Origin: Rhodobiaceae bacterium
Lineage (GTDB): Bacteria > Pseudomonadota > Alphaproteobacteria > Rhizobiales > TMED25
Length of the DNA stretch: 43,223 bases
Direction of reading: 5' to 3'
Assembly (NCBI GenBank): GCA_018651345.1
Contig: JABIEF010000012.1
Coordinates: 1 to 43,223, forward strand
A model generated the notes under the pieces. That model was not told the DNA's origin, did not search any database, and saw nothing but the letters and a program-made list of their open reading frames with translations. Position 1 is the first letter of the stretch. Each line of letters begins with the position of its first letter. Shown here one piece after another: positions 37,300-43,223 of this stretch. The position numbers and the translations under genes were made by a program.

Positions 37300-38463
37300 A
37301 TGAAAAGCCAATATTTATTTACAAGTGAATCTGTTTCTGAAGGGCATCCAGATAAAGTTTGCGATAAAATATCAGATACTCTGCTTGATGCCTACATAAG
37401 AGAAAATCCAGAATCCAGGGTAGCAATCGAAACACTTGTTACAACCAATCTAGTCGTTCTGTCGGGAGAAACAAATAATACAAAAATATCTAAGAATCAG
37501 ATTGAAGAAATCGTACGCAACTGTATTAAAAAAATTGGCTATGAACAGGAGCATTTTGACTGGAAAACCGTTGAAATAATATCAAAAATACATTCACAGT
37601 CAGCTGATATAGCTCAAGGTGTGGATGAGACAGATTATAAAGAAGAAGGGGCTGGGGACCAAGGAATTATGTTTGGTTTTGCTTGTTCAGAGACAGATTC
37701 ATTAATGCCAGCTCCATTATATTATGCAAATAAAATACTTATGCAGATAGCTGAAGCCCGACATAGTGGAGAGATAACAGAGCTTGGGCCAGATGCAAAA
37801 AGTCAAATAACCCTCTTATATGAAAATGGAATACCCATCAAAGCAGAAAAGATTTTAGTTTCCAGCCAGCATAAAGAAAGTATTGATGCTAATAGAGTTC
37901 GTCAAATAATTAGACCTTATATTGAGAGAATACTTCCTAAAAATTGGATGTGCTCTGAAGATGATTTTTTAGTAAATCCTACAGGAAAGTTTGTAATAGG
38001 CGGACCTCATGGTGATACAGGGCTAACAGGAAGAAAAATAATTGTGGACACTTATGGCGGAGCAGCTCCTCATGGTGGTGGGGCTTTTTCAGGAAAGGAT
38101 CCAACTAAAGTAGATAGATCGGCATCTTATGCAGCTAGGTATATTGCAAAAAATATCGTTCATGCTGGTTTATCTAAAAAATGTTTAATACAGGTTTCAT
38201 ATGCAATTGGAGTTTCAGAACCTCTATCACTATATGTTAAATTAGGAGATGATGCAAAAATTAGCGAAGATAAATTAATTAATGTCATTAATAAAATAAT
38301 TGATCTTAGACCTAAAGGAATTAGAAAACATCTACAACTGAATAGACCGATATATAGCAAAACAAGCGCTTATGGGCATTTTGGCAGAATACCTGAAGAT
38401 GACGGAAGCTTCTCTTGGGAAAAAACAGATTTAACAGAAGATATATTAAGTGAACTAACATAA
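37300..38463 (+). CDS. metK: S-adenosylmethionine synthetase
   Basis: This is a 387-residue enzyme making SAM from methionine and ATP. Motifs include [14 protein letters not shown] (His16, Asp18, Lys19), [32 protein letters not shown] and [18 protein letters not shown], all intact. SAM is used by RsmI, MiaB, HemW and TrmB in this window. With only 4 bp after lnt there is no room for a SAM riboswitch directly upstream, so local SAM feedback is unlikely to act at this gene's own leader. trmB follows after 23 bp. Confidence 0.98.
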
Positions 38464-38486: not shown

Positions 38487-39173
38487 ATGGAAGAAAAACA
38501 AAGCGCAAATAGATTACATGGGAGAAAAAAACTATATAAACTAAGTGATGAAAAAACAACTTTATTAGATGATGTCCTTCCTAAATTTATCATAAATATT
38601 GATAATAATAATGAAAATTTATCTAACTTTTCTCAAAAAAAAGAAATATTCCTTGAAATTGGTTTTGGATACGGAGAACATCTAGCTTTTCAGGCTTATA
38701 ATAATCCAAATATTGATATCATTGGTGCAGAACCATTCCTAAATGGCATTACAAACCTACTAAAAATAATTGTAAAAAAAAATATTAAAAATATTAAAAT
38801 ATATAATCACGATGCACTAACTCTAATTAAATCAATAAAACCTGAAACGATTTCAACAATTTATATACTCTTTCCAGATCCTTGGCCTAAAACGAGACAT
38901 AATAAAAGAAGGATTATTAATGAAAGTTCAATTAAAGAATATTCAAGGATTTTAAAAAAAGACGGTAAAATAATAATTGCAACAGATTCAAAGGATTACC
39001 AATATTGGATATTATTACATATGCAAAAAAATAGATTATTTGAATGGTTAGTAAATGATGCCAATGACTGGAGAACCCGTTTAATAAAAGGACCCCTAAC
39101 AAAATACGAAAAAAAATCTATTAAATCTAATAACAAGCCCGTATATTTTATGTTTAAAAAAAATATTATTTAA
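38487..39173 (+). CDS. trmB: tRNA (guanine-N7-)-methyltransferase
   Basis: This is a 228-residue class I SAM methyltransferase forming m7G46 in tRNAs. Motif I is FLEIGFGYGEHLAFQA, followed by IIGAEPFLNGI, IKIYNHDAL and the hallmark TIYILFPDPWPKTRHNKRRI with catalytic-site Asp and the basic tRNA-binding run. The start MEEKQSANRLHGRKKLYKLS has the typical Arg-rich opening. It is probably the last gene of the lnt-metK-trmB unit, with an intrinsic terminator 71 bp after its stop. Confidence 0.96.
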   Translation: MEEKQSANRLHGRKKLYKLSDEKTTLLDDVLPKFIINIDNNNENLSNFSQKKEIFLEIGFGYGEHLAFQAYNNPNIDIIGAEPFLNGITNLLKIIVKKNIKNIKIYNHDALTLIKSIKPETISTIYILFPDPWPKTRHNKRRIINESSIKEYSRILKKDGKIIIATDSKDYQYWILLHMQKNRLFEWLVNDANDWRTRLIKGPLTKYEKKSIKSNNKPVYFMFKKNII

Positions 39174-39179
39174 AATGAC

Positions 39180-39208
39180 TTGTATTTCTTATAATAGAAA
39201 TTTATAAT
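39180..39208 (+). promoter_or_regulatory. Candidate promoter of the rimP-nusA-ylxR-infB operon
   Basis: TTGTAT (39180-39185) and TATAAT (39203-39208) are separated by exactly 17 bp, close to the sigma-70 consensus. Transcription would start near 39215, about 30 bases before the terminator-like hairpin. AT-rich DNA gives many such matches, so the spacing and location, not the boxes alone, support it. Confidence 0.5.
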
Positions 39209-39243
39209 ATATTATTCCTACTTATAGTTTTATATAAATTTTC

Positions 39244-39267
39244 GGGCTCTTTAAAAGCCCTTTTTTT
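39244..39267 (+). terminator. Intrinsic terminator between trmB and rimP, possible attenuator
   Basis: GGGCT (39244-39248) pairs with AGCCC (39256-39260) around a 7-base loop, followed at once by seven T. It is the clearest rho-independent terminator in the window. It may end the lnt-metK-trmB unit; because a promoter candidate lies upstream of it and rimP begins in its T-run, it could also work as a conditional terminator for rimP-nusA. Confidence 0.75.
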
Positions 39268-39832
39268 GTATATAAAACAAAAAAAGAGAAAAAAAATTAA
39301 AGAGAATAATAAGAAAATAAGAATTAATAATGAAACAACAGAAGAAGAAAAAATTTCTTCTCTGGTTGAACCCTTAATAGAAAATATGGGTTACCAACTT
39401 GTCAGGATTAAAATGATAGGCGGAGACCACAATATATTACAGGTTATGGCTGAAAAAGAAGATGGGACTTTAGCTATATCCGATTGCTCAAAAATTAGTA
39501 GAATTCTATCTCCTATTATGGATATTGAAGACCTTATAGAAGATCAATACAGATTGGAAGTCTCTTCTCCTGGGATAGACAGGCCCCTTGTAAGAATTAT
39601 TGACTTTGAAAGAACTATTGGTTTAGAGGCAAAAATAGAATTAAGTGAGATGCTTGCAGACAGAAAACATTTTCGTGGCATGATTGAAGGAACCCAGGAT
39701 AGTGAAGTCTTATTAAAAATGGAAATTGATGGATATGATGAACCTCAAATTATTGGCATACCTTTTAAAAAAATAAGTTCAGCTAAATTAATTATGACTG
39801 ACGATTTAATTGCATTAGCAAATAATAATTAA
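39266..39832 (+). CDS. rimP: Ribosome maturation factor RimP (start uncertain)
   Basis: This protein helps 30S assembly. The family region begins around EEEKISSLVEPLIENMGYQLVRI and continues with DCSKISRILSPIMD, YRLEVSSPGIDRPLVR and IPFKKISSAKLIM at the end. The frame has no ATG before the methionine inside the conserved NMGYQ. The only standard start upstream of the family region is this TTG, which lies in the T-run of a terminator and has no ribosome binding site. It would give a very basic 30-residue extension rich in Lys and Asn. A start at a rarer codon further in (ATT or CTG near 39350-39370) is possible. nusA follows after 31 bp. Confidence 0.88.
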   Translation: MYIKQKKRKKIKENNKKIRINNETTEEEKISSLVEPLIENMGYQLVRIKMIGGDHNILQVMAEKEDGTLAISDCSKISRILSPIMDIEDLIEDQYRLEVSSPGIDRPLVRIIDFERTIGLEAKIELSEMLADRKHFRGMIEGTQDSEVLLKMEIDGYDEPQIIGIPFKKISSAKLIMTDDLIALANNN

Positions 39833-39863: not shown

Positions 39864-41522
39864 ATGGCTCAAAGTGGTGTAAGTGCAAACCGTTTAGAAT
39901 TATTGCAAATAGCAGATGCTGTCGCACGTGATAAATCTATAGATAAATCAATTGTTATAGAAGCAATGGAGGATGCAATACAAAAAGCTGCAAAATCACG
40001 TTACGGTTCTGAAAATGAGATTCGTGCTGAAATTGATCCTAAAACAGGTCAAACAAACCTTGCGAGGCTTCTTGAAGTAGTTGAAACAGTTGAAAATGAT
40101 TCTACAGAAATTAGCCTTGAGTATGCTAAATTAAAAAATTTAGAAGCAGAATTAGGAGACTATATTTCAGAAGAACTGCCACCAATAGAATTTGGAAGAA
40201 TAGCAGCACAAAACGCAAAGCAAGTAATATTTCAAAAAGTTCGTGATGCTGAAAGAGATCGTCAGTTTGAAGAGTTTAAAAATAGAGTTGGAGAGATAAT
40301 ATCAGGTATTGTCAAAAGAGTTGAGTATGGAAATATTATTGTTGATCTTGGAAAAACAGAAGCTATAGTGCGCAGAGATGAGCTACTACCTCGCGAAGTC
40401 TTTAGAAATGGGGACAGAGTTTTAGCCTATATCCATGAAGTTAAAAGGGAACAAAGAGGACCTCAGATATTTCTTTCTAGAACACACAATCAATTTATGA
40501 CAAAATTGTTTACTCAAGAAGTTCCTGAAATTTATGATGGGATTGTTGAAATAGTTGCTGTTTCAAGAGATGCTGGTAGTAGAGCTAAAATAGCCGTTAG
40601 ATCAAATGATACAAGCATAGACCCTGTTGGTGCTTGCGTAGGGATGAGAGGAAGTCGCGTGCAAGCAGTTGTCAATGAATTGCAGGGTGAAAAAATTGAT
40701 ATTATTAAATGGAACCCAGATATGGCAACCTTCATTATTAATTCTTTAGCTCCTGCGGAAGTATCAAAAGTAGTATTGGATGAAGAAATCGAGAGGATTG
40801 AAGTTGTAGTTCCCGACGAGCATCTTTCGTTGGCAATTGGTAGAAAAGGTCAAAATGTTAGACTAGCTTGCCAATTAACTGGATGGGATATTGATATATT
40901 AACTGAAGCCAGTGAATCTGAGAGAAGACAAAATGAGTTTACTGAAAGAAGTAATATATTTATTGAAGCGCTTGATGTTGACGAAGTCATAGCACAATTA
41001 TTAGTTTCAGAAGGATTTACATCAATTGAAGATTTAACTTATGTAGAAATTAAAGAAATAATTGATATAGAAGGATTTGATGAAGATACTGCAATAGAAA
41101 TTCAACATAGGGCTAAAATTTATCTTGAAGAGAAAAATATAAAACAAGATAAAAAAAGAATTAAAATAGGTGTTTCAGATGACCTACTTGCCATAGATGG
41201 AATAACAACAGACATGTTAGTTAAGCTTGGAGAAAACGATATAAAATCATTAGATGACTTTGCTGGTTCTATAACAGATGATTTAACTGGTTGGGTTGAA
41301 AAAAATGAAGACGGTAATAAGAAGCATCCCGGCATATTCAGTGATTTTAATATTAATGCACCAAAAGCAGAGAAAATGATCATGGACGCGAGAGTAAAAG
41401 CAGGATGGATAACCGAAGAAGATCTTAATCAAAATGAAAGAGTTAATGTAATAATTGATGAAGACAAAGAAAAAGAAAAAGAAAAAGCTGCTAAACTAAG
41501 AAATGCAAGAATATTAAAATAA
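39864..41522 (+). CDS. nusA: Transcription termination/antitermination factor NusA
   Basis: This is a 552-residue RNA polymerase-binding factor. The N-terminal domain (about 1-125) has LELLQIADAVARDKSI and AMEDAIQKAAKSRYG. An S1 domain (about 130-200) includes ISGIVKRVEYGNIIVDLGKTEA. KH1 and KH2 carry GACVGMRGSRVQAVVNELQG and AIGRKGQNVRLACQLTGWDI. Two C-terminal helix-hairpin-helix acidic repeats follow (FTSIEDLTYVEIKEIIDIEG and a second near 450). The ATG at 39864 is chosen over a TTG at 39852 because GGAG (39854-39857) lies six bases before it. The operon place between rimP and ylxR is universal. Confidence 0.98.
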   Translation: MAQSGVSANRLELLQIADAVARDKSIDKSIVIEAMEDAIQKAAKSRYGSENEIRAEIDPKTGQTNLARLLEVVETVENDSTEISLEYAKLKNLEAELGDYISEELPPIEFGRIAAQNAKQVIFQKVRDAERDRQFEEFKNRVGEIISGIVKRVEYGNIIVDLGKTEAIVRRDELLPREVFRNGDRVLAYIHEVKREQRGPQIFLSRTHNQFMTKLFTQEVPEIYDGIVEIVAVSRDAGSRAKIAVRSNDTSIDPVGACVGMRGSRVQAVVNELQGEKIDIIKWNPDMATFIINSLAPAEVSKVVLDEEIERIEVVVPDEHLSLAIGRKGQNVRLACQLTGWDIDILTEASESERRQNEFTERSNIFIEALDVDEVIAQLLVSEGFTSIEDLTYVEIKEIIDIEGFDEDTAIEIQHRAKIYLEEKNIKQDKKRIKIGVSDDLLAIDGITTDMLVKLGENDIKSLDDFAGSITDDLTGWVEKNEDGNKKHPGIFSDFNINAPKAEKMIMDARVKAGWITEEDLNQNERVNVIIDEDKEKEKEKAAKLRNARILK

Positions 41523-41527
41523 AAAAT

Positions 41528-42088
41528 ATGGATTATAAAACCTGTATAGCAACGAAAGAATTTTTATCTATAAATGACCTAGTGCGTTTAGTGATTACAT
41601 CAAATGATAAAATTGTACCTGATTTAAAAAAAAAGTTACCCGGAAATGAACTATGGATTAAAGCAAAGAAAAATATTATAGAATTAGCTATCAAAGAAAA
41701 TATTTTTAACGACCAATTGAACAAAAAAAATATTGAAATAGACGATTTGGCTTTAAAAATAGAAAATTTATACAAAAAAGAAATTTCGAATAATATCAAT
41801 ATTGCAATAAAAGCAGGTGACGTGGTATTGGGATATACAAAAGTTTTAGATTGTATAAAAAATAAATTAACAAAAATACTTTTTACAGCTAGCGATGCTG
41901 GTATTGATGGGAAAAAAAAATTAGTGTCAGCGTGTAGAGAGGATATTTATATATTTAATATATTTAATATCGATGAAATAAGTAAAATTATTGGAAAAGA
42001 AAATACTGTGCATTTATGTGTTAAAACAGGTAACATGGCAAATATAATAATTAACTCTATCGCCCAATATAACAATTATATAAGATAA
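41528..42088 (+). CDS. ylxR: YlxR (DUF448) protein with C-terminal L7Ae-like domain
   Basis: This is a 186-residue RNA-binding protein between nusA and infB. Residues 1-65 fit YlxR: KTCIATKEFLSINDLVRLV and KIVPDLKKKLPGNELWIKA. The normally invariant R-x-C near the start is K-T-C, and the PGRG(A/R)(Y/W) motif reads PGNELW, so the basic surface is reduced. Residues about 90-186 look like a ribosomal L7Ae/L30e-type domain (AIKAGDVVLGYTKVLDCI, KILFTASDAGIDGKKKL), an extension common in Alphaproteobacteria. It starts 5 bp after nusA and infB follows after 6 bp. Confidence 0.9.
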   Translation: MDYKTCIATKEFLSINDLVRLVITSNDKIVPDLKKKLPGNELWIKAKKNIIELAIKENIFNDQLNKKNIEIDDLALKIENLYKKEISNNINIAIKAGDVVLGYTKVLDCIKNKLTKILFTASDAGIDGKKKLVSACREDIYIFNIFNIDEISKIIGKENTVHLCVKTGNMANIIINSIAQYNNYIR

Positions 42089-42094
42089 GAAAAT

Positions 42095-43223
42095 ATGACA
42101 GATACAAAAGATACAGCAGACAATAAACTTACGATAAAAAGCAAGAAAACGCTTAGTCTGAAAGGTTCTATAAGCTCAAATCAGACTAAACCAAGCTTTG
42201 CCCAGGGTCGAGGAAACTCTGTAGTTGTAGAAACAAAAAGAAAAAGAATTATTAGACCTATCGATAATAATAATGAAGTTAATAATGTTTTTAATAACGA
42301 AAAATCTAAAAGTGAAGATCCATTAGATGCGAGTATAAATAATAATATTCTTACATCAAATGAAAAAGACGCACGTACGCAAGCCTTAATTGAATCTAAA
42401 AATAATAAAATAAAAGAATCTAAAAATAATAATAAAACTGCTGACGAAGAAGATAATCTAATATTATCCATAGATTCAGAAACAGATAATCAGAAAAATC
42501 AAGACGACAAAAATAGTATTAATACACCTAAAGAAGTTGTTGTCGATAGTGAGGTGGAATCTTCAAGAAAGAATAAAAGAACACCTGTTAGTGAAGATTT
42601 AACAGACGATGACCAGGAAGGAAGAAAAAAGACAAATTTAAAACAGACTAAAACACTTGGACAAGATGAGCGAAGAAAAACAAAACTAACTATTACGAAG
42701 GCTTTAGATGATACTCCTCGACATCGATCATTAGCATCCATAAGAAGACGACGTGAACGTGAAAAAAGACAATCTCTCGGCTCTGAGATTCAGCAAAAAA
42801 TTAGTAGGGAAGTTATTCTTCCAGAAGCAATAACAATACAAGATCTTGCAAATAGAATGGCAGAAAGATCTGTTGATGTGATAAAGCTTCTGATGAAACA
42901 AGGACAAATGTCCAAAATAACCGATATAATCGATGCAGATACTGCTCAATTAATAGCCGAAGAGATGGGGCATGTAGTTAAAAGGGTTTCTGATGCTGAC
43001 GTTGAAGAAGGTCTACACGGTAGCGATGATTTATTAGAAAATCTTGAATCTAGAGCGCCTGTTGTTACAATAATGGGGCATGTAGATCATGGTAAAACAT
43101 CTTTATTAGATGCCCTGAGACAATCCAATGTTGTTACTGGCGAAGCCGGGGGGATAACTCAACATATAGGTGCCTATCAATTAACTACGGATTCAGGCAA
43201 CATAATTACATTTCTTGATACAC
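42095..43223 (+). CDS. infB: Translation initiation factor IF-2, 5' part, cut by the window edge
   Basis: The frame runs from ATG 42095 to the end without a stop; 376 codons are seen. The start KKTLSLKGS and [17 protein letters not shown] is the usual alphaproteobacterial IF-2 N-terminus. A long low-complexity Asn/Lys/Glu/Asp-rich linker follows (about 60-210). The IF2N domain is at about 245-300 ([20 protein letters not shown]). The GTPase domain begins with G1 GHVDHGKT at 328-335 and continues through [15 protein letters not shown], the switch region. The factor places initiator tRNA on the ribosome. It is the last visible gene of rimP-nusA-ylxR-infB. Confidence 0.97.
42392..42432. repeat. 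Direct repeat inside the infB linker
   Basis: The 17 bp GAATCTAAAAATAATAA occurs at 42392-42408 and again at 42416-42432, in frame with a 24 bp period, giving two Glu-Ser-Lys-Asn-Asn units in the disordered linker. It looks like a small duplication. Confidence 0.8.

Follow-up and report, generated by a model that had tools for sequence, protein, structure and literature searches.

The rimP-nusA locus of this genome raises a simple question: why should an apparent intrinsic terminator stand between a promoter-like sequence and the first gene of an operon? The window (the whole stretch of DNA analyzed, 43,223 nucleotides, contig C42) belongs to a marine-type bacterium with a genome of 1.53 Mb and 31.5% GC whose closest named relatives, as judged by NusA, are Hyphomicrobiales MAGs. 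NCBIfam profiles confirmed the gene order lnt-metK-trmB-rimP-nusA-rnpM/ylxR-infB. We conclude that the leader of rimP-nusA-rnpM-infB is probably a transcription attenuator, an alphaproteobacterial member of a general rimP-leader class, and that NusA is its likeliest regulator.

37300-38463: metK, 5' of trmB
38487-39173, + strand: trmB, the upstream gene (NCBIfam TIGR00091, above cut-off)
39180-39208, + strand: predicted promoter, TTGTAT-17-TATAAT, kept in the congener and the family
39215-39243, + strand: short leader before the hairpin, from a putative transcription start
39244-39260, + strand: predicted terminator hairpin, GGGCTCTTTAAAAGCCC, five pairs (four G-C), -6.3 kcal/mol
39261-39267, + strand: T7 tract of the terminator; the T-run is kept in all family members
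39283-39288, + strand: weak Shine-Dalgarno-like AAAGAG (AAGGAG in the congener)
39296-39832, + strand: rimP, with a proposed ATT start at 39296-39298, from frame and family match
39864-41522, + strand: nusA (TIGR01953)
41528-42088, + strand: rnpM/ylxR-type RNA-binding protein whose C-terminal part is L7Ae-like (NF006622 and NF047356, each below its cut-off)
42095-43222, + strand: 5' part of infB, running off the window (TIGR00487, partial)

The rimP leader pairs a predicted promoter with a compact hairpin

Direct reading of the DNA bore out the promoter-like pair of the original prediction, with TTGTAT at 39180-39185 and TATAAT at 39203-39208 separated by 17 nt. The -35 element is weak, matching the consensus at three of six positions, and the site is absent from the list returned by a consensus scan, which found 55 sites in the window against 47 expected by chance from shuffles of this AT-rich DNA. 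The case for the predicted promoter is its conservation, not its match to consensus. All 35 bases of 39174-39208 are the same in the congener, and CTTGTA(A/T)-N16..18-TATA(A/C)T occurs in 13/13 same-family genomes with a readable leader. The 11 further family members, whose DNA has otherwise diverged, each have CTTGTAA, 16-18 nt, TATAAT or TATACT, a short stretch, the hairpin, a T-run and then rimP. In these 11 further species the -35 abuts or overlaps the stop codon of trmB, and coding constraint could explain part of its conservation there; within the window's own genus it is located 6 nt past that stop. From the position of the promoter, transcription would be expected to start near 39215.

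The hairpin had been called the best terminator in the window. That description holds in the sense that it is the sole compact G-C hairpin followed by an unbroken T-run, and in six shuffled versions of the window none appeared with four or more G-C pairs within 18 nt. It does not hold by free energy alone, by which ten longer foldbacks in the window score lower, although the shuffles also give such foldbacks. Besides the terminator, folding of 39215-39268 yielded just one weak A-U hairpin and no antiterminator, and no leader peptide was found before the terminator hairpin.

Leader elements are conserved in close relatives

Across 39174-39331 the window and the congener (G001) are 94.3% identical, whereas trmB and rimP agree at 72% of their third codon positions (Fisher p 2e-9); the two genes are 87–88% identical overall. 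The stem GGGCT...AGCCC is present in both genomes, and the sole difference between them in hairpin and T-run lies in the loop. In the sister genus the stem reads AGGC...GCCT through a compensating change, the first pair going from G-C to A-U between the two genera. A wider set of genomes added further stem exchanges (G-C/A-U, U-G/C-G, C-G/U-A), in a search that demanded standard first four pairs and left the flanking pairs free. Promoter, hairpin, T-run and rimP follow one another in the same order in 13/13 same-family genomes with a readable leader. An alignment of the leader across relatives, proposed as a check on the attenuator, found both hairpin and promoter kept in the congener and in 11/11 further family members, with compensating stem changes; the hairpin, whose absence from close relatives was to count against the idea, is present there.

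A hairpin that arose by chance in AT-rich intergenic DNA and has no function is very improbable. Promoter-like matches are indeed abundant by chance in the window, but such an origin would not account for conservation beyond neutral expectation, covariation in the stem or recurrence of the hairpin in two orders.

The hairpin is also nearly specific to this locus. GGGC-N-GCCC-TTTTT occurs at two sites in the 1.53-Mb genome, the rimP leader and a leader before ilvB, and in 9/9 sister-genus genomes AGGCTTTC...AAGCCTTTTT has a single occurrence, each time at rimP. The hairpin sequence is thus essentially unique in its genome, which argues against a generic terminator at this site.

A similar hairpin precedes rimP in Hyphomicrobiales and Rhodobacterales

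The hairpin might simply be the 3' terminator of metK-trmB, with rimP transcribed by other means and no regulatory role. Gene-end terminators are ordinary, trmB lies upstream and codirectional with its stop 70 nt before the hairpin, and because this arrangement is invariable in the window's family, a 3'-end role is possible there. Besides the near-uniqueness of the hairpin sequence, three lines of evidence nevertheless make this explanation unlikely as the whole account. First, promoter sequences 5' of the hairpin are kept in 13/13 family members. Second, the gap between the T-run and the rimP start (~28 nt here; roughly 18–40 nt in family members and Rhodobacterales) is too short for a complete promoter, so polymerase would have to read through the hairpin to transcribe rimP-nusA-infB. 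Third, Rhodobacterales keep the hairpin at loci where the upstream gene is divergent.

This third point comes from a survey in which ~83 of 114 distinct alphaproteobacterial loci had a similar hairpin 5' of rimP, a count reached after dropping the hairpins of L024, L070, L077 and L082 by eye and adding L018, L019, L021 and L075 from a second screen. The typical form is GAGAGUGGGYCC...GGNCCGCUCUU in Hyphomicrobiales and GRCGGGCC...GGNCCGYU in Rhodobacterales, where 18 of 18 loci have the hairpin. The upstream gene is divergent at three Rhodobacterales loci, encoding an Omp85-family protein at L097 and L103 and an alcohol dehydrogenase at L090, and the gap at each contains a promoter-like pair (CTTGC-type, 17-nt spacer, TATATG) followed by the hairpin. 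With the upstream gene reading away from rimP, the hairpin at these loci cannot terminate it, and these loci are the best evidence tying the predicted terminator to rimP. The simpler reading offered alongside the attenuator, that the hairpin only ends metK-trmB, is therefore disfavored.

Among the 114 loci, those of Sphingomonadales and of some other lineages have no such hairpin; we saw no convincing hairpin upstream of rimP at the Sphingomonadales-type and Kordiimonas loci (L080-L089, L101, L105 and L077-L079). Lineage loss is a possible explanation. The hairpin is thus not indispensable.

The leader resembles known attenuators of rimP-nusA-infB

The attenuator reading is supported by conservation, by recurrence across Hyphomicrobiales and Rhodobacterales even beside divergent upstream genes, and by an already described class of rimP-nusA-infB attenuation (PMC2965389). 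Leaders of that general class, reported by Naville and Gautheret in 2010, have a GGGc...gCCC hairpin and T-run 4–130 nt before the rimP start of rimP-nusA-infB, no antiterminator and a proposed protein regulator, with NusA the best candidate (PMC2965389). The window has the GGGc...gCCC motif in its GGGCT...AGCCC stem, likewise lacks an antiterminator in its leader fold, and places its terminator 28 nt before the proposed start, within the 4–130 nt range. Transcripts of the class start 5' of the terminator and include it; for such a start the window shows a conserved promoter sequence. It differs in that its family has a shorter, A-U-richer stem, which in the sister genus becomes AGGC...GCCT.

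Membership is in this general class and not in the Rfam family RF01770, which was not matched. RF01770, the gammaproteobacterial rimP leader, shares the position before rimP and the hairpin-plus-U form, but is a model of 102 positions. With its cut-off of 47 bits it gave no match on the + strand of the window (19.4 bits on the - strand elsewhere) and nothing above cut-off in 20 related loci. Rfam as a whole, at gathering and relaxed thresholds, gave no usable match for the leader, and no Rfam model detects the rimP-leader hairpin in Hyphomicrobiales and Rhodobacterales. The main text of Naville and Gautheret does not name Alphaproteobacteria (PMC2965389), and our literature search found no description of an alphaproteobacterial rimP attenuator among the papers it covered. 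We take the leader in the window to be a new member of an already known class.

From the sequence we infer promoter activity, termination in vivo and a role for NusA as sensor. RNA polymerase would start near 39215 and make ~30 nt of RNA before encountering a weak intrinsic terminator at 39244-39267. A fraction of complexes would terminate, yielding a leader RNA of ~50 nt, and the remainder would read into rimP. With a competing antiterminator hairpin absent, a protein probably governs readthrough. NusA, itself encoded in the operon, would be the likeliest candidate, with high NusA causing more termination and hence less NusA. The same hairpin would also halt transcripts arriving from metK-trmB.

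A site of this kind could instead sense RimP, NusG, Rho or translation of the leader. We regard this as possible though not favored: lacking an antiterminator or leader peptide, the leader cannot itself name the factor, and RimP was also named as a candidate by Naville and Gautheret (PMC2965389). NusA, however, is an operon product for which feedback through leader termination is established in B. subtilis (PMC12288461), and the E. coli operon is repressed by NusA according to work cited in PMC2965389. NusA-stimulated termination in the B. subtilis ylxS(rimP)-nusA leader is credited to Mondal 2016 by PMC12288461. That leader and ours both carry an intrinsic terminator upstream of the first gene of a nusA operon, but the B. 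subtilis leader is ~180 nt, compared with ~50 nt to the terminator here, and NusA dependence is shown in B. subtilis and predicted in the window. In the E. coli metY-nusA-infB leader, terminators t1 and t2 lie upstream of rimP, as the hairpin does here, and NusA regulates the operon (PMC6511841); E. coli differs in that RNase III processes the leader and the upstream gene is the tRNA gene metY, where the window has metK-trmB.

Our findings would carry the rimP-leader attenuator into a Hyphomicrobiales family of small, AT-rich genomes and, by our survey, widely into Hyphomicrobiales and Rhodobacterales. This suggests that nusA feedback through leader termination is old and has been retained even in small AT-rich genomes. 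The leader would also make a compact construct for testing NusA feedback.

rimP may begin at an ATT codon

The original prediction opened rimP at a TTG in the T-run, with no ribosome binding site. TTG 39266 indeed falls within the T-run, has no Shine-Dalgarno sequence and is the sole ATG, GTG or TTG before the conserved protein begins. The weak purine-rich AAAGAG lies farther down, with ATT 39296 located 7 nt 3' of it. In relatives rimP begins with ATG followed by EExRINNET or KHYRIHNET, and the window reads NKKIRINNET in frame. These residues match those of the relatives through other codons, so the region is probably translated. RINNET (39320-39337) is conserved at the protein level in relatives, placing the start no later than ~39317, and the best-matching RimP family model begins its alignment at residue 13 of the open frame (model position 5), two codons past the ATT. 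ATT 39296 is the best-placed start and our best guess. The pattern for the 16S 3' end, which would give the anti-Shine-Dalgarno sequence, was not found in the genome assembly.

The infC gene is known for control of its translation start by initiation-factor stringency. If rimP does use an AUU codon, the attenuator might in this genus be coupled to that start, and rimP, the first gene of the operon, would be under two controls, one on termination through NusA and one on translation through initiation-factor stringency; we offer this only tentatively.

We rejected an out-of-frame ATG at 39330, combined with a frameshift, as the rimP start: its short frame differs in length, with 15 codons here and 11 in the congener, and lacks a good slippery site. 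The congener has an in-frame rimP ATG only downstream of the conserved RINNET.

Minor sequence features

A BoxA-like GCTCTTTAA within the hairpin was dismissed as chance, given that the congener has GCTCCTTAA and the sister genus lacks it. An inverted repeat, TTTTTTTGT at 39261-39269 and ACAAAAAAA at 39277-39285, could in readthrough RNA bring the U-tract into pairing with the A-rich region around the start. Both congener changes keep the pairing as G-U, but it is almost all A-U and the sister genus does not clearly retain it, and we make no claim for it. Finally, the GGGC...GCCC-T site before ilvB (L126, G000:C9:19527-19543, minus strand), which encodes acetolactate synthase, follows a short frame, MYFNFITLVVVRSVT, and resembles a classical attenuator of the branched-chain amino acid type.
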